Below the pieces are notes generated by a model. That model did not search any database and had not been told where the DNA came from. It saw only the letters and a program-made list of their open reading frames with translations. 37,808 bases of DNA from Prevotella sp. (GTDB lineage: Bacteria > Bacteroidota > Bacteroidia > Bacteroidales > Bacteroidaceae). Of this stretch, positions 24,250 through 31,873 are shown piece by piece. Position 1 is the stretch's first letter. The number at the start of each line of letters is the position of its first letter. Where the stretch lies: contig JAGAGD010000090.1 in the NCBI GenBank assembly GCA_017627765.1, positions 1-37,808 on the forward strand, read 5' to 3'. The position numbers were made by a program, and so were the translations under genes.

Positions 24250-25278
24250 TTACATGCATCGCAATCTCTGTTGTAACTCCTGAATCCGCTGCATCAGATG
24301 ATCAAAATCCAATGACCTCCCATAAATGAAGTATCGTTGCATATTGGAATAATCTTGGCGCCAGTCATCCTGAACATTCTCTGGGGGGAGGATATTAATG
24401 GTGTCAGGGTGATGTAATGAATAGTCCACATATCTTATCGCATAGTAGGCTTGTCGATGTTCGATGATGGTATTATATAATGTTTTGTCCGCCAAAGCAG
24501 ATTTGCCAAACTCAGAATCCATAAGGCGCTCCAAATCATAAAGATGGCGGGACATTCTCATACTACGCGGTTTGTCTTTCTGGAACTCTTCTGCAAGCAG
24601 GAATATCTTTTCCAAGAAAGTGCGGGTAGGTACTACGGTCTTGATTCGACACACTGCATCCGTATCATCATCAGGAAATGTCTCGCATATAAGTGAACGT
24701 ATTTCACGTTCCTCAACTGGCTCGTCCATAGAGAGACAGCTTATCTCTATCTTCACCCTGGGCGGGATGTAGTCAATCTTCCGAGAGAGCAGACTGTCGT
24801 AGTGAAGCAGAATGACGGTTGGATCTTTGTCGCTATCAATAGGAACAAGTTCACCTTGCCTGTTTTCTATATGAGTGATGTTCTCTATCTGGTAGCCTGT
24901 GATACCCATGGCTTTTAAACGTTCATCAAGTTGACCTGACAAAGTGCTTTGGATATAGGCTCTCGACAACTTGCGCAGCTTATCGCGTTGACTTTTGGTG
25001 GACTTATTGATGCCAAAGAATGAATGGCTGATAGCCAAGTCAATATCTTCAGAAAACCTTTCTATCAATCCCCAGCCTTTGCTGAGACTGGTACCGCCTT
25101 TGAATATCAAGCTTTCTGCACAATCCGTCTGGAATAGTGCCTTTAATGTGACACTAACCCACCAGTCTTTTTCTATTGCCGCCTGTCCAATACCAGTATG
25201 ACTCTCTTCAGTCTTCTCCAGCATGTATGAACGGTCGGTATCGTTATTGTTTATCCAAAGTATCTGTTTCATTACCAT
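24250..25278 (-). CDS. AbiEii-family nucleotidyltransferase toxin
   Basis: The 342-residue product (or from the second Met at 25272) shows the AbiEii/DUF1814 nucleotidyltransferase signature: FKGGTSLSKGWGLIERFSED (59-78), with GG/GS at 61-65 and the metal-binding acidic pair in EDID (77-80), and the later strand 'VKIEISCL'. AbiEii toxins of this fold block growth by modifying RNA; related toxins add nucleotides to tRNA. The start overlaps the antitoxin gene by 35 bases, typical for AbiE operons. Confidence 0.9.
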   Translation of the reverse strand: MVMKQILWINNNDTDRSYMLEKTEESHTGIGQAAIEKDWWVSVTLKALFQTDCAESLIFKGGTSLSKGWGLIERFSEDIDLAISHSFFGINKSTKSQRDKLRKLSRAYIQSTLSGQLDERLKAMGITGYQIENITHIENRQGELVPIDSDKDPTVILLHYDSLLSRKIDYIPPRVKIEISCLSMDEPVEEREIRSLICETFPDDDTDAVCRIKTVVPTRTFLEKIFLLAEEFQKDKPRSMRMSRHLYDLERLMDSEFGKSALADKTLYNTIIEHRQAYYAIRYVDYSLHHPDTINILPPENVQDDWRQDYSNMQRYFIYGRSLDFDHLMQRIQELQQRLRCM

Positions 25279-25870
25279 TCTTTTTTATAATAGGTGAAAG
25301 AATTTTTCGCATCCATATAGGAACCAACATCAAATCTTGGCGAAGTTTATCCTGTTCTGGTTCCTTTCGAATAAGCTTTCTTATTTGAGTTAATTCTGTT
25401 TCTCCAACATTATCTTTTCCTAATGCTTTAAGAGCTTGAACAAGATAAGCCATAAGTGTAGTTTGATAGGCAAAATTGCGAGGAACACCACGTTTGAAAA
25501 CGATGGTCTGATTACCTAATTTAATCGTTCTTCCGCTACTAACTGCTATAAAAGAATAGTTCATAGGCACTTGTGTTGATAGCCCCAATTCATTAAGAAC
25601 TGTCTCACCCACAGGAAGAATTTTAGTGTTATCGCGCTTTGCAATACTCTCAGCAATTTGTATGATAGATGGTTTAACAGCACCAAACCGGCTCATCTTT
25701 GGCCGATAGTAAATGCCTTGCCCCAACTTAAGAATCAGGTTTTCTTCAACGAGTTTTGCCAATACATTACCCACAAATTCTGCATTATATTGTGGGTAGT
25801 CAGTCCTGAAAATAACACTTCCAGGAGGGGTTTCTTCTATAATTTGTCTGAGTGGTCTGTCTTCCGTCAT
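25244..25870 (-). CDS. AbiEi-like antitoxin/regulator (DUF6088 type)
   Basis: The 208-residue product begins with a winged-helix-like region: 'IIEETPPGSVIFRTDYPQYN', then 'VLAKLVEENLILKLGQGIYY'. It continues with the DUF6088-type middle 'ILPVGETVLNELGLSTQVPMN' and 'GRTIKLGNQTIVFKRGVPRN' (each in part). Such proteins are the antitoxin and DNA-binding repressor partners of AbiEii toxins. It overlaps the toxin gene and is the first gene of the minus-strand group. A TAnnTTTG promoter lies just upstream. Confidence 0.85.
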   Translation of the reverse strand: MTEDRPLRQIIEETPPGSVIFRTDYPQYNAEFVGNVLAKLVEENLILKLGQGIYYRPKMSRFGAVKPSIIQIAESIAKRDNTKILPVGETVLNELGLSTQVPMNYSFIAVSSGRTIKLGNQTIVFKRGVPRNFAYQTTLMAYLVQALKALGKDNVGETELTQIRKLIRKEPEQDKLRQDLMLVPIWMRKILSPIIKKNGNETDTLDKQ

Positions 25871-25876
25871 ACCTTT

Positions 25877-25905
25877 GAAATTTTTGCAATATTTCCCACA
25901 TTTTG
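25877..25905. promoter_or_regulatory. 29-bp box, copy B, in the leader of the antitoxin gene
   Basis: It differs from copy A (24192-24220) at a single base. It lies between the -7 element (25909-25916) and the ATG at 25870, six bases from the start codon, so it is in the transcribed leader. It is a natural site for autorepression by the AbiEi-like protein or for a post-transcriptional signal. Confidence 0.8.
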
Positions 25906-25908
25906 ATG

Positions 25909-25943
25909 CAAATATACAAACTTTATTTCAATTCTATCACAAA
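25909..25943 (-). promoter_or_regulatory. Promoter of the AbiE-HEPN group
   Basis: On the minus strand TATATTTG (25916-25909) matches TAnnTTTG. A TTTG lies upstream at 25943-25940, with a 23-bp spacer that is slightly longer than the usual 19-21. It is followed directly by box B and the antitoxin ATG. Confidence 0.55.
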
Positions 25944-26084
25944 AAGAAAGCAAATTGACTTAAAATCATTTTTTAATGGGAAATTATAGGAATTCAAGTT
26001 CTTTAGAAAACGAAAATGAATTAAAACTACGGCATAAGAGCAGTTTTTTACTGATCAATGATATTTTATTGTTGACATCATCAA

Positions 26085-26119
26085 CTTCTTTATAATCTAT
26101 CCAGTAGATTATAAAGAAG
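26085..26119. repeat. Hairpin 1: perfect 15-bp inverted repeat
   Basis: CTTCTTTATAATCTA (26085-26099) and TAGATTATAAAGAAG (26105-26119) are perfect arms around TCCAG. No T-run follows on either strand, so it is a poor terminator. A smaller GTTGA/TCAAC repeat abuts it at 26071-26085. Confidence 0.9.
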
Positions 26120-26166
26120 TCCATTCCCTACCCTATTCATATTTGTAGGACTACATTCAAAGAAAA

Positions 26167-26207
26167 TTCTGTTTATTCCGAATATACTTTATTCTGAGTA
26201 AACAGAA
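26167..26207. repeat. Hairpin 2: nested inverted repeat
   Basis: TTCTGTTTATTC (26167-26178) faces GAGTAAACAGAA (26196-26207), 11 of 12 positions complementary, the odd one a G-T pair. Inside it GAATA (26180-26184) faces TATTC (26190-26194). Confidence 0.85.
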
Positions 26208-26216
26208 CATACTTTT

Positions 26217-26322
26217 CATTTTTCAGACGGGATTTCTTCTGCCCATAGAATATATAAGATAACACTTCCCTGAAGGAAAACTTATATCTTATATGTTCTA
26301 TCTGCAAATCCCTTTCTGAAAA
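26217..26322. repeat. Hairpin 3: long, interrupted inverted repeat
   Basis: The pairing segments in order are TTTTCAGA with TCTGAAAA, GGGATTT with AAATCCC, ATAGAA with TTCTAT, and ATATAAGATA with TATCTTATAT. A TTCC/GGAA tip closes the loop. Small internal loops separate the blocks. It spans about 105 bases with more than 30 paired positions and could fold as RNA on either strand. Confidence 0.8.
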
Positions 26323-26358
26323 GTCCGATTTTCCACCCACCCATTTTTATTATGCATG

Positions 26359-26548
26359 CTTGTTGTACCGTCGGGATTTCCTCACAAAGTTAACTCGAAC
26401 CTGAAATACAACAAGTACCGCTAAAGCTATTTATAAGATATTCTTCCGTTTCTATTAATTCAAGGTAAAGAATATCTTATAAATTCCTTGTTTTTATTTC
26501 CCTTTTGTCCTCATTGCATAAGTGAGGAAATCCCGATAGTGCAACAAG
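26359..26548. repeat. Hairpin 4: 27-bp outer and 16-bp inner nested inverted repeats
   Basis: The outer arms 26359-26385 and 26522-26548 match at 24 of 27 positions, and the differences leave G-T pairs or a mild mismatch. The inner arms TTTATAAGATATTCTT (26430-26445) and AAGAATATCTTATAAA (26468-26483) are perfect. The first nine bases of the outer arm, CTTGTTGTA (26359-26367), can instead pair perfectly with TACAACAAG (26407-26415). The structure ends 35 bases before the phosphoribosyltransferase ATG. Confidence 0.85.
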
Positions 26549-26583
26549 TAAGTTGCAACATAAGGGAATAAAATATTCATTAC

Positions 26584-27096
26584 ATGATAAAATACGCTTT
26601 ATACGACTATATTCCTAAGAGTTTATTGAACTCTGCCACTTTTGAACAACAGGATATTTGCAGGAAAATACTTGATTTGAAGGAGGGAAGAATATATGCT
26701 GCTGTGTGGGCAGCAAAAACAATAGCCCAAGTACTTTCTTTAATAAATCTGAATGACGTAATAATAGCTTGTGTTCCTGCAAGTAGTGAACGGTCTTATA
26801 TAAGAAGATGGAAGCGTTTTTCAAATATCCTTTGCTCACTTTCTGGAGCTGTTAATGGATTGGAACATATCATCGTTATAGGTATAAGAGAAAAATTTCA
26901 CAAACAAAGAAATAATAATAACATATTAAAAAATGTCTTACTTGATAAAGTTTTTTTTGAAAAACGAAAAGTTGTCATCATAGACGATATATTTACAACT
27001 GGTGCAACATCTGATAAATTTATTAAAATGTTGGAAAATGCAGGTGCCGATGTGAAACTAGCGGTTTTTCTTGGTAAGACAAAACAATTTACATAA
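26584..27096 (+). CDS. ComF-like phosphoribosyltransferase-fold protein
   Basis: The 170-residue product carries the PRPP-binding motif VVIIDDIFTTGATS (130-143) and the ComF-like segment 'IIACVPASSERSYIRRWKRF' (60-79). The N-terminal zinc-finger half of ComF is missing. Type I phosphoribosyltransferases bind PRPP, though in mobile elements some members have unknown or regulatory roles. It lies directly after the hairpin region and about 100 bases before the integrase, with no metabolic neighbour. A ComF-like role in DNA uptake or an RNA-linked role are both speculative. Confidence 0.8.
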   Translation: MIKYALYDYIPKSLLNSATFEQQDICRKILDLKEGRIYAAVWAAKTIAQVLSLINLNDVIIACVPASSERSYIRRWKRFSNILCSLSGAVNGLEHIIVIGIREKFHKQRNNNNILKNVLLDKVFFEKRKVVIIDDIFTTGATSDKFIKMLENAGADVKLAVFLGKTKQFT

Positions 27097-27169: not shown

Positions 27170-27198
27170 CAGCCAACCTAATCAATTTGATAAACATT

Positions 27199-28422
27199 AT
27201 GGCAAGATTAACTTATTCGATTCTGAAGGATAAAGTCCTTTCTGACAAAACCTGGAATGTTTTTTTTAAGTTTTCTCACAATGGAGAAACTCGTTATTTT
27301 TCCTCCACAATGTATGTCGAACAAAAAGACTTAACAGAGGATATGCGAATAAAAAACAGAAAAATCATAGATAAATGTGAAAAATTAATTTCAATCTATA
27401 GGAAAATTATAGATGACCTCTATCTTGAGATAAACCCACTGCCTATAGATGTAATTGTCAATCTATTAAAAGATAGAGGAACTGAAGGTAATATTGACTT
27501 TGTTCAATTTGCGAAGGAATGGTGTAAAAGGCATAAAAACAAAAAGGGAATAAGAAACTATAAAAGCGCAATAAACTCACTTTGTAGATTTTTTGGAAGG
27601 GAATATATTTCTGTAAACGAAATAACAGCCAGGACTATGAAACAATTTGAAGAGAGTTTGGGTGATAAACCAAGAGCAAAGACTCTTTATACTTCGGCTA
27701 TAGTCAAATTGTTTAATGACGCTATAGAGTTTTATAATAATGAAGATTATAATATAATTAGAATCCGACACACACTTGATAGATACAAAGCTCCTAAACA
27801 ACGAATCTTCGCAAGAAAAAGGGCAATATCAACAGATAAGATTAAAGAGATTTTCAAACTGGAATATGATGGTATCCTCCATAAAGGAAATATTAGTGTG
27901 AGAGACCTTGCAAAGGATTGCTTTATGCTGTCTTTCTGCTTAATGGGCATAAATAGCGCAGATTTATTCAATGCCACAGAATATGACGGAGAATATATAA
28001 CTTATAACAGAACAAAAACAAAAGACAGAAGAGTTGATTGTGCTGAGATTAAAGTCAGAATTCCATATATAGTTAAGCATCTGGTGGAGAAGTACAGAGG
28101 GGAAAAACGCGTTTTTAATTTTTATGAAAGATATAGGAGAATGGAAAATTTTAATAGGGCAATAAATATGGGACTGAAACAAATTGGAAAGGAGATAGGA
28201 ATAGAGAACCTGCAATTTTACTCAGCAAGACATTCAATGGCAACTATAGCTCTTAACAAAGTTGGGATAGACAAATACACACTAAATGATATGCTGAACC
28301 ATATTGACCAATCTATGAGAATTACTGATATATATATAGAAAAGGATTTTACACAGATAAATAAAGCAAATGCAAGACTTATGGAATATATGTTTGGTTA
28401 CCACTCTCTTTCTCTTTTCTAA
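27199..28422 (+). CDS. int: Tyrosine recombinase (integrase) of the element
   Basis: ATG at 27199 (MARLTYSILK) is preferred over a TTG at 27187. The 407-residue product has the Bacteroidota integrase layout: an N-terminal arm-binding domain, a phage_int_SAM-like core (about 100-175) and a catalytic domain from about 205. The usual first catalytic Arg is replaced by Asn in CFMLSFCLMGINSADLF, as is common in this Bacteroidota group. The second Arg lies in YSARHSMAT (about 344), His in NHIDQ (about 368) and the nucleophile Tyr in ITDIYIEKD (about 379). The gene reads toward the tRNA-His fragment at 30263, so it probably integrates the element there. Confidence 0.93.
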   Translation: MARLTYSILKDKVLSDKTWNVFFKFSHNGETRYFSSTMYVEQKDLTEDMRIKNRKIIDKCEKLISIYRKIIDDLYLEINPLPIDVIVNLLKDRGTEGNIDFVQFAKEWCKRHKNKKGIRNYKSAINSLCRFFGREYISVNEITARTMKQFEESLGDKPRAKTLYTSAIVKLFNDAIEFYNNEDYNIIRIRHTLDRYKAPKQRIFARKRAISTDKIKEIFKLEYDGILHKGNISVRDLAKDCFMLSFCLMGINSADLFNATEYDGEYITYNRTKTKDRRVDCAEIKVRIPYIVKHLVEKYRGEKRVFNFYERYRRMENFNRAINMGLKQIGKEIGIENLQFYSARHSMATIALNKVGIDKYTLNDMLNHIDQSMRITDIYIEKDFTQINKANARLMEYMFGYHSLSLF

Positions 28423-28448
28423 TTAATAAAGAAGCTACACATATATTG

Positions 28449-28519
28449 AGAGAATGTAAAGTAAACCGAATCAGGCTACAATAGAAAAGTAGTAAGACAA
28501 AGTTTACTTTACATTCTCT
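28449..28519. repeat. Perfect 18-bp inverted repeat after the integrase gene
   Basis: AGAGAATGTAAAGTAAAC (28449-28466) and GTTTACTTTACATTCTCT (28502-28519) are perfect complements around a 35-base spacer. It lies between the convergent integrase and LRR genes. The spacer is long and no T-run follows, so a simple terminator is unlikely. A recombinase or excisionase binding site, or a long hairpin, are possible. Confidence 0.92.
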
Positions 28520-28537
28520 ACCAAGTTTACAGAAATA

Positions 28538-30124
28538 TTATTTATTATAAAACTTAACCTCTTTTGCTATACCATCTATATAATAAAGTAATACATATGT
28601 TCCTTTATGTAGAACATTTAAATTTACCCCGCTCATACTACCCTTGCCTACCAAGCTTCCTTTCATATCATAAATATACCACTTATCCATAAAAGATGGT
28701 ATCGACAGTTTTGAGCTTTCAGAAAATGCTTCCAAACAAACATCACCTATTCCAAGAGGTAGCATGTCCTCTCCGTTAAGCATATACCACCGCTTAGATA
28801 GAGCTCGATCTGGTGCATCAATAGCGCATACATTTAAATCTTCAGAAGGATCTTCTTCCTCATTATGGAAAATAATCATTCCCTCATCCTCACCTTCATT
28901 ACGCATTGTAAGGCTTTCAATCAATTCATCTGTCCCTTCAACGCTCAGATTATTGTGATCAGCCATTATCAATTTTAAGTTTTCACAGCCGTCTGCCAAT
29001 AATCTATCAAGTAAATTATGGTCGCAAGCTATTAAGGCAATAGAGGTATTACCAGAAATCTGTAAATCTGAAATATTGTTATAACTACAACTTAGCGAAA
29101 CTAACTGCTTGTTATTTCTCACATCTAAAGAAGTAAGATTATTATCACCACAACTTAGCGTATTAAGAGACAATAAAGAGGAAATGTCAAGACTGATAAG
29201 TTTGTTGGTAAAACAGTATAGTTCTTCAAGTTCACCGTTGTTGGACAGATTAAGATCTGTGATTTCATTAATTTTGCAATTAAGTTCTAACAGCTTGTAT
29301 AAATTGCTAACATCAAGAGAGGTAAGACTATTATCACCACAATATAGTATGGACAGATTAGGATTTGCTGAGACTTCTAAGTCATCAAGATTACACCCCT
29401 CGCAATATAATTGCTCCAAAAGATTATTCTTACTCAAATCTATTTTACCGAGCTTATTCTTACTGACATTTAAAATTACCAAATTAGGACATGATGCAAT
29501 ATCAAGTGTCTTTAACTGATTCCTGTAACAAGACAGCTCTATAAGATTTCCTGAATTGTCAAGATTCAAATCTGATATCTTATTCTCATGACAATAAAGC
29601 AATTTAAGTGCAGAAGAATCCCCCAAATGTAATTCTTCTATAGCATTGTCATTACAATAAAGTCTAACTAAATTGTAGTTTTGTGAAACGTCAAGAGAAG
29701 ATAGCATATTTATATCACATTTTAGTACCATCAGCGACTTCGCTAGACTACAGTTCAGCCCACTCAACTTCAGTGAAGAACAATCAATACCTGTAATGTT
29801 GCCAACTATGGTTATTGTAGGTTGGGTTACAGGTGAATTGAATTGCATGAATGTCGGAACATTTACATCGGTAGATACTTCCTTTTCTAACACAGTACCA
29901 TCCCCCAAGTCAATTGTAACAAAGCCTTCTGAAGATGCAATACTTAATCTAACGGTCTCACCTTCCAGAAGTCCACTTTCTAACACTATCATTTCATTAG
30001 GTTCTTCCGATGCCATGAGACAGCCATGATATTTAATCATTTCAAAATTAAAAAATGATGCTTGATGCGCATAAATCCCAAAACACATAAAAAGGAAATG
30101 TGTCAAAATAAACATTTTTTTCAT
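28538..30124 (-). CDS. Secreted leucine-rich-repeat protein with T9SS-like C-terminal tail
   Basis: The 528-residue product has a signal peptide (about 1-19), a beta-rich N-terminal region (about 40-115) and around 12 LRR units of about 21 residues (about 115-400). These follow the pattern 'LxxLxCxxNxLxxLDLSxNxxL', with Cys at the turn. An acidic linker (EGEDEGMIIFHNEEEDPSED) follows. The last 80 residues resemble a type A type IX secretion signal domain: 'WYIYDMKGSLVGKGS', 'GTYVLLYYIDG' and the final 'KEVKFYNK'. It is probably a surface or secreted binding protein carried as cargo between the integrase and the attachment site. Confidence 0.85.
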   Translation of the reverse strand: MKKMFILTHFLFMCFGIYAHQASFFNFEMIKYHGCLMASEEPNEMIVLESGLLEGETVRLSIASSEGFVTIDLGDGTVLEKEVSTDVNVPTFMQFNSPVTQPTITIVGNITGIDCSSLKLSGLNCSLAKSLMVLKCDINMLSSLDVSQNYNLVRLYCNDNAIEELHLGDSSALKLLYCHENKISDLNLDNSGNLIELSCYRNQLKTLDIASCPNLVILNVSKNKLGKIDLSKNNLLEQLYCEGCNLDDLEVSANPNLSILYCGDNSLTSLDVSNLYKLLELNCKINEITDLNLSNNGELEELYCFTNKLISLDISSLLSLNTLSCGDNNLTSLDVRNNKQLVSLSCSYNNISDLQISGNTSIALIACDHNLLDRLLADGCENLKLIMADHNNLSVEGTDELIESLTMRNEGEDEGMIIFHNEEEDPSEDLNVCAIDAPDRALSKRWYMLNGEDMLPLGIGDVCLEAFSESSKLSIPSFMDKWYIYDMKGSLVGKGSMSGVNLNVLHKGTYVLLYYIDGIAKEVKFYNK

Positions 30125-30262: not shown

Positions 30263-30306
30263 GATTGTGGTTCTGAATGTCGTGGGTTCGAGTCCCACCG
30301 GGCACC
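30263..30306 (+). tRNA. 3' fragment of tRNA-His (GTG), probable attR site
   Basis: The segment begins in the anticodon arm (GATTGTGGTTCTGA, anticodon GTG at 30267-30269). It continues with a variable loop, the T-arm GTGGG-TTCGAGT-CCCAC (30282-30298), the acceptor strand CGGGCAC (30299-30305) and C73 at 30306, as expected for tRNA-His. The 5' half is absent: upstream is AT-rich element DNA. This is the duplicate left when an element integrates into a tRNA gene and restores the gene at its other end. The other end is outside the window. Confidence 0.85.
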
Positions 30307-30311
30307 CTTCA

Positions 30312-30532: not shown

Positions 30533-30539
30533 CAGTTGA

Positions 30540-30835
30540 GTCATATCCTTTTAGCGTAGAGGTATGACCTTTTCGAGGGTAAAAAACAATAACAGCATTA
30601 GCAGTTATTCGGAGTGTCTGAAATGTAGGAAGTTTTAGAAACAAAGCTCAAATAACGATAAATGACTAATGTCTGCGCTTCATAGCGTGGACTGATTCAC
30701 TTATCTATTTGAGCAGGTTTTCCTACAACCTCAGACACGGATAGGCGGTCCACGCTTCTTCGTGTCTGTTTGGTTTGTATGGGAATCTGCAAAATCCCGA
30801 TAAGTGCTTTTGCCAAAAGCTATAAGCGCAAATAA
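30540..30835 (+). ncRNA. Structured leader or small RNA upstream of the RM operon
   Basis: The region between promoter and ATG has strong base pairing. GTCATATCC (30540-30548) pairs with GGTATGAC (30561-30568). A long interrupted hairpin is formed by GTGTCTGA (30614-30621) with TCAGACAC (30731-30738), TGTAGGAA (30624-30631) with TTCCTACA (30720-30727), and GCTCAAATA (30646-30654) with TATTTGAGC (30706-30714). Its tip is GTCTGCGC/GCGTGGAC (30671-30692). GCGTGGAC can alternatively pair with GTCCACGC (30748-30755). Small hairpins GGGA/TCCC and GCTTTT/AAAAGC follow before the ATG. The long closing stem with open centre recalls 6S RNA, but I cannot assign a class. Confidence 0.65.
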
Positions 30836-31873
30836 ATGCCAGAAAAAGACTTGTTACCATCAAAAAAAGATGGCAATCTCCCGTGTGTTGACATTAGGGA
30901 GAACGACCTGCTGGCGATATCCGCAGACGTACTCAACACTCTGCTGCACGACCACACCACAGGTCAAAACATTTTCTGGGCGACTCATGATTATGAATCG
31001 CTTGGAAGTGAATACGGTTACTATTCCCCTATCATGCCAGAACTTATCACTGGAGACATGGGAATGGTGATTCAGCCACGTGTTTTCAAATCTAAAGAAA
31101 ACCAGTCATACCGTTCAAAGGATATGGCTGAAGTTTTTACCCCTTCATGGGTATGCAATGCCCAGAATAATCTCATAGACGAAGCATGGTTTGGTTATAA
31201 AGACGTTTTCAACTTTGAAGACAAAAAGAACCACACCTGGAAAACACGAACCGAAAGAATTAAATTCCCCCAAAACAAGACGTGGAAAGACTATGTGAGA
31301 GCAACTCGCATGGAAATTACCTGCGGAGAAGCTCCTTACCTCGCAAGCCGATATGACACCACAACTGGTAAATTCATTCCAATATCCGACCGCATTGGCA
31401 TGCTTGACAGAAAACTTCGCATCGTCAGCGAGAACACCAATACAAGCGGCGAATGGCTGGATTTTGCTCAGTCTGCCTATAAGAACACCTATGGCTATGA
31501 ATGGCAGGGCGACAATCTTCTTCTTGCGAGAGAGGCTCTTCTTTATTCATTCATAGAATACTATCATGCAAAATTCGGTAAACTGCCATTAGAGAAATCC
31601 ATCAATTATATAGCCTACATCATTTCTTGGAACATCTGGCAGATGGACGGACTCAAAGGCGTTGTTCCAGACTCATGCCGAAACGGAATGAAAGAGAAAG
31701 TTATGACTCTCTTTGGCGAGGAAGAACAAATCGTGAATTGCACAGGATGCCAACACGAAGACATCAGGAAGCATAACGGCATTTATTGCCTTATACGCGA
31801 CTGGGGAGTTAAAGACACTAAAACAGGAGAGAACAATAGGAAAATCAGATATATAGACCTTATCAAAAGATAA
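30836..31873 (+). CDS. Methyltransferase-like subunit of a restriction-modification system
   Basis: The 345-residue product has 'DMAEVFTPSWVCN' (96-108), the FTP motif near the start of many N6-adenine methyltransferases. 'MEITCGEAPYLASRYDTTTG' (159-178) is placed and shaped like a divergent SAM-binding motif I. No NPPY motif is present; that lies in the next gene. The C-terminus has a possible metal site, 'CTGCQHEDI' then 'HNGIYC' (302-318). The product is likely one half of a split methyltransferase working with the following helicase protein, four bases downstream. Confidence 0.7.
   Translation: MPEKDLLPSKKDGNLPCVDIRENDLLAISADVLNTLLHDHTTGQNIFWATHDYESLGSEYGYYSPIMPELITGDMGMVIQPRVFKSKENQSYRSKDMAEVFTPSWVCNAQNNLIDEAWFGYKDVFNFEDKKNHTWKTRTERIKFPQNKTWKDYVRATRMEITCGEAPYLASRYDTTTGKFIPISDRIGMLDRKLRIVSENTNTSGEWLDFAQSAYKNTYGYEWQGDNLLLAREALLYSFIEYYHAKFGKLPLEKSINYIAYIISWNIWQMDGLKGVVPDSCRNGMKEKVMTLFGEEEQIVNCTGCQHEDIRKHNGIYCLIRDWGVKDTKTGENNRKIRYIDLIKR

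Follow-up and report, generated by a model that had tools for sequence, protein, structure and literature searches.

The window analyzed here is the whole stretch of 37,808 nucleotides from a Prevotella sp. contig, and by gene content it is most of a Bacteroidota ICE. The genes follow in the order TraG, TraM, TraN (DUF4138), MobC-type coupling protein, ArdC, Toprim protein, MutS_I-domain protein, HipBA, and AbiEii/DUF6088, after which come four hairpins (H1 to H4), a phosphoribosyltransferase (PRTase) gene, an integrase gene, and a tRNA-His end. The features of this last part are as follows.

24250-25870, minus strand: AbiEii/DUF6088 toxin-antitoxin type pair (cargo), between the MutS_I gene and H1
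26084-26120, no strand assigned: H1, perfect 16-bp stem (16/16 pairs), loop of 5
26159-26215, no strand assigned: H2, arms of 26 nt at 81%
26220-26322, no strand assigned: H3, nested hairpin with words common to H4, without a -7 box
26359-26548, no strand assigned: H4, 190 nt, last and largest of the four, proposed ssDNA promoter
26385-26392, minus strand: -7 box of H4, TAACTTTG, antisense, in the gene-distal arm, with 1/6 core positions paired in the hairpin
26412-26414, minus strand: -33 TTG of H4, separated from the -7 box by 19 nt; the predicted fold places it in the middle stem, where it is paired
26526-26530, plus strand: predicted start, from the pairing register, of an RNA for which the single antisense strand would be the template; a leader of about 55 nt would precede the PRTase ATG
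26584-27096, plus strand: ComF-like PRTase, the proposed driven gene
27187-28422, plus strand: ICE tyrosine integrase, with its own Bacteroidota-type promoter (by eye) just upstream
30263-30307, plus strand: 3' end of tRNA-His (45 bp), read as the attachment copy of the ICE

The tRNA-His copy is identical at 45/45 bases to G000:C61:8107-8151, which is the end of an intact tRNA-His. Past this tRNA, contig C61 carries a Rep_3 initiator gene (minus strand, some 0.4 kb in), a gene of 132 aa that has no Pfam match and that we call MobA-like, and a PF03432 relaxase gene (plus strand, about 3 kb in). Homologues of these three genes, 50-54% identical, lie at the corresponding end of the ICEs of two other genomes, G369 and G546, that have the same backbone order as this ICE (MobC is 72% identical in G369), and we therefore read C61 as the opposite end of this ICE. 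When the element is circular, the relaxase gene would lie about 6.8-7 kb beyond H4 in the same direction as the PRTase gene, a distance that rests on attachment-site identity and synteny because the ICE ends are on two contigs. Under the F-plasmid rule, and with transfer polarity assumed, H1-H4 probably lie in the leading region of the ICE. The PRTase gene, described as an orphan in the sequence-only reading, adjoins the same backbone genes in the ICEs of G369 and G546, and this description does not hold.

Other structured sequences were seen near the ends of the element. On C61, a 22-bp unit is repeated perfectly in tandem 4.5 times beside the Rep_3 gene (L166, 3972-4070), and a 355-bp hairpin precedes the MobA-like gene (L166, 4217-4571); a hairpin between the Rep_3 and MobA-like genes is also present in L167 and L171, and the repeats and hairpin are a probable oriV/oriT region of this ICE family. 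In the window, a strong inverted repeat lies just past the integrase gene, between convergent genes (28449-28519, within 28357-28608). Beyond the tRNA-His copy, a highly structured stretch of 306 nt (30535-30840; RNA z -7.7, no Rfam match) follows a Bacteroidota-type promoter (by eye) and precedes a gene of unknown family that adjoins an Eco57I/ResIII restriction-type gene; this stretch is possibly a non-coding RNA or a defense-system leader.

The hairpin array

The four strong inverted repeats that the sequence-only reading described are all present, in a stretch where the longest ORF is 55 aa, and they exceed chance when both strands are folded as it had proposed. The RNA fold of the array (504 nt) has an energy of -166.1 kcal/mol on the plus strand (z -16.7) and -165.6 kcal/mol on the minus strand (z -11.3), and 0/100 shuffles were as low in either case; as DNA, the z scores are -13.5 (plus) and -11.2 (minus). 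The outer arms of H4 are 27 nt at 89%, and its inner stem pairs 26429-26445 with 26468-26484 at 17/17 positions. Its stem score of 23 is modest compared with shuffles of its own region (maximum 19 among 20), and its antisense strand, in a computed DNA fold, has an energy of -37.3 kcal/mol (z -8.1). The common plan that had been noted for H3 and H4 is borne out by the words CGGGATTTC and TATAAGATA, which both contain, but the outer stem of each reaches further outward than the arms first given.

Searches with Rfam 15 gave no match at gathering score across the window; a further search gave 17 weak matches, all below gathering and 14 of them to microRNA models. The array matched only itself and its own reverse arms in its own genome (assembly 88% complete), and in a search of 301 genomes its DNA gave two short matches in other genomes of the family, both in unrelated coding genes. 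Plasmids and phages yielded weak short matches only (E 0.1 or worse), and viral contigs yielded none, either to the H4 arm pattern or in one protein search. Sigma-70-like sites are no commoner in the array region than in shuffles.

The explanation put forward below is one for H4 and does not extend to H1, H2, and H3. Additional hairpins upstream of the main one were found in 3/28 elements compared with 2/177 control windows, and multi-hairpin groups are present in L104, L170, L159, L157, NZ_OY725888, and the pMMCAT-type plasmids. As a conserved part of the system, H1-H3 are weak candidates.

Boxed hairpins upstream of PRTase and other genes

A strict ungapped repeat search near relatives of the PRTase, integrase, and DUF6088 genes found no such arrays. 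After this result had suggested their absence, imperfect hairpins emerged in the relatives when a gapped stem finder was applied to the 1500 bp that precede each PRTase relative. The loci belong to the bacterial family of the window itself, in the genome set used, or to named Bacteroides plasmids; 58 loci were reduced to 46 when short flanks and near-duplicates were dropped. A stem was scored at 20 or more over 120-450 bp, the box was defined as TAnnTTTG, and a TTG was sought 17-21 nt away, in keeping with the Bacteroides -7 and -33 promoter consensus (accessible text of PMC7366714). By these definitions, a large stem is present upstream in 35/46 PRTase relatives, and 28/46 have an antisense box in the gene-distal arm (20/46 with the TTG). 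The proximal arm has a sense box in 5/46. At this threshold, 11/46 have no stem, and in a further 7 the stem lacks a box.

Control loci gave far lower counts. Stems were found upstream of 3/28 integrase and 3/25 DUF6088 genes, antisense boxes in 0/28 and 0/25, and sense boxes in 0/28 and 1/25, respectively. Shuffled PRTase regions had 0/138 stems, shuffled integrase regions had 2/84 stems and 1/84 antisense box, and shuffled DUF6088 regions had 1/75 stems and no boxes. The hairpins of the family are imperfect, span about 190-450 bp with loops up to 207 nt, and precede leading-type genes of Bacteroidota ICEs and plasmids. H4 itself can be aligned over both arms with L119, L129, and one NZ_OY725888 element, and CAAAGnTA, CAAGTACCG, and AATTCCTTG are invariant across these four. 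No sense-strand TAnnTTTG occurs within 25871-26600, so the PRTase gene has no evident ordinary primary-type promoter there. At one further locus (L014, about 1328-1448), a 34-nt inverted repeat lies between a PRTase relative and a convergent integrase-like gene (by eye).

The PRTase gene is one of several that follow such hairpins. In two pMMCAT-type plasmids, NZ_OY725888, and Prevotella-like ICEs (a label inferred from the relative L006), boxed hairpins lie just upstream of co-oriented SSB, PcfK, LPD28, DUF4313, and PRTase genes. In pMMCAT (NZ_CP072215.1) and the related NZ_CP059857.1, they precede the LPD28, PRTase, SSB, and PcfK genes, all in one direction, and the hairpin of a JAB-domain gene in these plasmids lacks the box. 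Four plus-strand genes of NZ_OY725888, located at 64.5-73 kb and ahead of a MobV relaxase gene at 76 kb, have boxed hairpins upstream; the PRTase gene of NZ_OY725888 has only small hairpins without the box at threshold. Among the tested gaps of at least 180 bp before plus-strand genes, the best stem is boxed in 5/10 for pMMCAT and 5/11 for NZ_OY725888, some of these stems scoring below 17. NZ_CP072215.1 (L151 and L152) also contains three near-identical cassettes, at 62025-62602, 65095-65672, and 74197-74776, each before a different gene and each made of a 67-bp hairpin followed by a boxed hairpin of 315-316 bp.

Relaxase genes were searched in 38 genomes that hold 58 PRTase hits, within 70 kb on the same contig and above the score cut-off. 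Such a relaxase was found for 15 PRTase genes, of which 13 are co-oriented with it, none is opposite, and two, in the pMMCAT-type plasmids where a second relaxase faces the other way, are paired in both directions; all of the unambiguous pairs (13/13) are thus co-oriented. At G080:C2, where the relaxase lies 70.2 kb from the PRTase gene and just past the limit, the two are opposite. A boxed hairpin is present in at least 7/13 co-oriented loci, those for which one was itself scored (G369, G546, G657, G113, G182 C11, G224, and G064).

The position of the box within the stem was analyzed in 33 non-redundant elements, picked for stem and box from 63 collected. Positions 1-6 of the box are paired at 67/198, compared with 403/524 for the flanking positions and 0.71 for 635 control octamers from the same arms. 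The box is less paired than its own flanks in 30/33 elements and more paired in 3 (sign p 1.4e-6); in H4, pairing is 1/6 in the box and 12/16 in the flanks. A melted -7 box suits a promoter, and a plain operator or an RNA leader has no need of one.

The changes between arms bear on which strand folds. That the structure is under selection, as had been proposed, is borne out, and changes in the arms of relatives preserve pairing; homologous regions lacking conserved pairing, which had been named as evidence to the contrary, were not what we found. In 5/8 small families, namely A, B, D, G, and H, one or more comparisons gave more compensatory changes than a simple expectation (7 observed for 0.9 expected and 11 for 2.3 are examples), and there was no excess in family E (0) or in the diverged pair of family F (3 for 3.7 expected). 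Between H4 and its three closest relatives, compensatory changes are at chance (2, 4, and 5 observed; 3.4, 4.0, and 2.7 expected), and RNAalifold gave little signal for the four aligned elements (19 pairs, 5 with double changes). On the gene-sense strand of the 33 elements, stem mismatches are A-C 174 times and G-T 126 times, and A-C exceeds G-T in 23/30 untied elements; after correction for base composition this excess is not significant (p 0.11). Because selection on a sense RNA would leave the opposite pattern, the excess argues against it, and the asymmetry leans toward folding of the antisense strand. Since the conserved word is also a promoter on the opposite strand, the earlier proposal of RNA-level selection is not supported.

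Comparison with known single-strand promoters

In Pseudomonadota plasmids, single-strand promoters express early genes of the incoming plasmid before it is double-stranded. Masai and Arai, in 1997, reportedly described the Frpo ssDNA promoters of plasmid F, and the single-strand promoters of ColIb-P9 lie in the leading region and have an activity that depends on secondary structure. The latter, from Pseudomonadota, would by their description resemble the present hairpins in structure dependence and in a leading-region placement that is probable here.

As a positive control, the stem scan was run over 25 kb of plasmid F, where it found a stem at 58280-58596, 46 bp before ssb, and a second at 63669-63986, 45 bp before the leading gene that comes next. 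By position and by the accessible text of PMC9849209, in which Frpo1 and Frpo2 were studied in vivo, these stems would be Frpo2 (before ssb) and Frpo1, matched here by stem and place. The scan also gave stems scoring 17-52 that do not correspond to known promoters, which means that a stem by itself cannot diagnose one. Frpo1 and Frpo2 resemble the Bacteroidota hairpins in being imperfect hairpins of about 317 bp (scores 33 and 30) 45-46 bp before leading genes, in lying in the leading region (probable for the Bacteroidota hairpins) with genes co-oriented with the tra operon, and in occurring as two similar copies per element. Their mismatches show the same lean (20 compared with 9), and one strand of H4 folds, in computation, into a stem-loop that rebuilds promoter boxes, as is asked of Frpo/ssi sites.

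The boxes and the sequences differ. Frpo of plasmid F has canonical -35/-10 boxes (accessible text of PMC9849209), whereas the H4 family has a -33 TTG and a -7 TAnnTTTG in place of sigma-70 boxes. Comparison of the two F hairpins with the 63 elements gave no significant similarity (best E 0.016 over 20 nt), short of the E 1e-6 cut-off for Frpo similarity given in the accessible text of PMC11541004. The Frpo' and Frpo* candidates of that study (Samuel et al. 2024) are, like the present elements, leading-region hairpins with promoter boxes beside anti-defense genes, but its accessible text describes how they were detected, with BLAST searches from known Frpo/ssi sequences and with boxes of the sigma-70 consensus.

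A candidate promoter on the entering strand

Based on the above results, we consider it probable that H4 is an Frpo-like ssDNA promoter with Bacteroidota boxes, located in the leading region of this Bacteroidota ICE, and that it drives the PRTase gene from the incoming strand. After nicking, and if F-like rules apply, the strand complementary to the PRTase gene would enter the recipient 5' end first. On this strand the arms of H4 are predicted to pair, placing the -33 TTG in duplex and the melted -7 box in a bubble, as the computed fold and conservation indicate. RNA polymerase with the primary sigma factor would bind these boxes, would read the proximal arm as its template with the distal arm as the non-template strand, and would leave at the hairpin base to make PRTase mRNA from about 26526-26530. 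By analogy with Frpo, second-strand synthesis would dissolve the hairpin and shut off expression, and the H4 transcript may also prime that synthesis. In dsDNA, the same boxes would read the opposite way, toward H3-H1 and AbiE. With the boxes pointing away from the gene in dsDNA and toward it in ssDNA, it is conceivable that strand state alone sets the direction, in which case transcription in the integrated ICE would run toward AbiE and, on entry into a new cell, toward the PRTase gene.

Frpo is said to act as both promoter and priming site (Masai and Arai, 1997), and the hairpins could be sso sites that prime second-strand synthesis, with gene expression incidental. A probable leading region, several hairpins, and strong ssDNA folds would suit this explanation. 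ICEBs1, an ICE, has an sso (accessible text of PMC4595007), by description an ssDNA site like H4 that differs in being a replication origin and in belonging to a Bacillus ICE. As an sso alone needs no conserved -7/-33 spacing, gene-adjacent placement, or co-orientation, we regard this explanation as unlikely. A structured 5' leader, riboswitch, or attenuator of the PRTase mRNA would account for the strong sense RNA fold and for the compensatory changes in relatives, but not for the missing G-U excess on the sense strand (A-C 174, G-T 126), a conserved word that is an antisense promoter, or the unrelated genes that follow the hairpins; with no sense TAnnTTTG in 25871-26600 and no Rfam family at gathering score, an RNA element is quite improbable.

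AbiEi proteins bind inverted repeats, and a toxin-antitoxin pair lies near H1, itself a perfect 16-bp palindrome, so the hairpins might be by-products of dyad symmetry in operators, whether those of an antitoxin of the AbiEi type, of an ICE regulator, or of the integrase. However, DUF6088 relatives have a stem in 3/25 and the antisense box in 0/25, and ordinary operators do not look like nested stems that span about 190-450 nt and have loops as long as 207 nt, which makes palindromic protein sites slightly less credible still. The least probable explanation, to which we give almost no weight, is that of mobile-element remains (a MITE or insertion-sequence ends) or a recombination or attC-like site, attC-like sites having been judged by eye. 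The inverted repeats do adjoin the integrase gene, and three promoter hairpins in one plasmid are 97-98% identical, as if such units get copied, but there is no second copy in the genome of the window (assembly 88% complete), and the ICE attachment copy sits at tRNA-His. A site of the element itself, among the possibilities raised by the earlier reading, is the best class of answer.

If the promoter reading of H4 is extended to its relatives, it is conceivable, and we suggest only tentatively, that Bacteroidota conjugative elements carry an ssDNA promoter family that evolved apart from Frpo, in which the -7 box is pre-melted and strand state switches the direction of transcription. Its spread was observed across one bacterial family and is perhaps phylum-wide. 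Among the matches listed in a literature search outside subscription papers and preprints, there was no report of single-strand promoters in Bacteroidota. According to their accessible texts, PMC12826799 finds Frpo by similarity and PMC11541004 by similarity and sigma-70 boxes, and 'Bacteroid' is absent from the main text of each. Promoters in Bacteroidota, with other boxes, would escape both surveys. The idea of an ssDNA promoter is not foreign to such elements, since the accessible text of PMC3969726, which studies a B. fragilis ArdA protein, states that ArdA genes of conjugative plasmids and transposons are generally expressed from a single-stranded promoter.

Bacteroidota carry many conjugative elements, whose leading regions could be mapped by one signature, an antisense TTG-N18-20-TAnnTTTG in the distal arm that lies in a bubble. 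The signature could also point to unknown anti-defense genes there, perhaps including this PRTase gene.

A separate observation concerns the neighbors of two PRTase genes. In NZ_OY725888.1 (L150, 19935-21006) and NZ_CP059857.1 (L148, 25448-26630), the PRTase gene is followed directly by a SLOG-family gene, and the two perhaps form an anti-defense pair.
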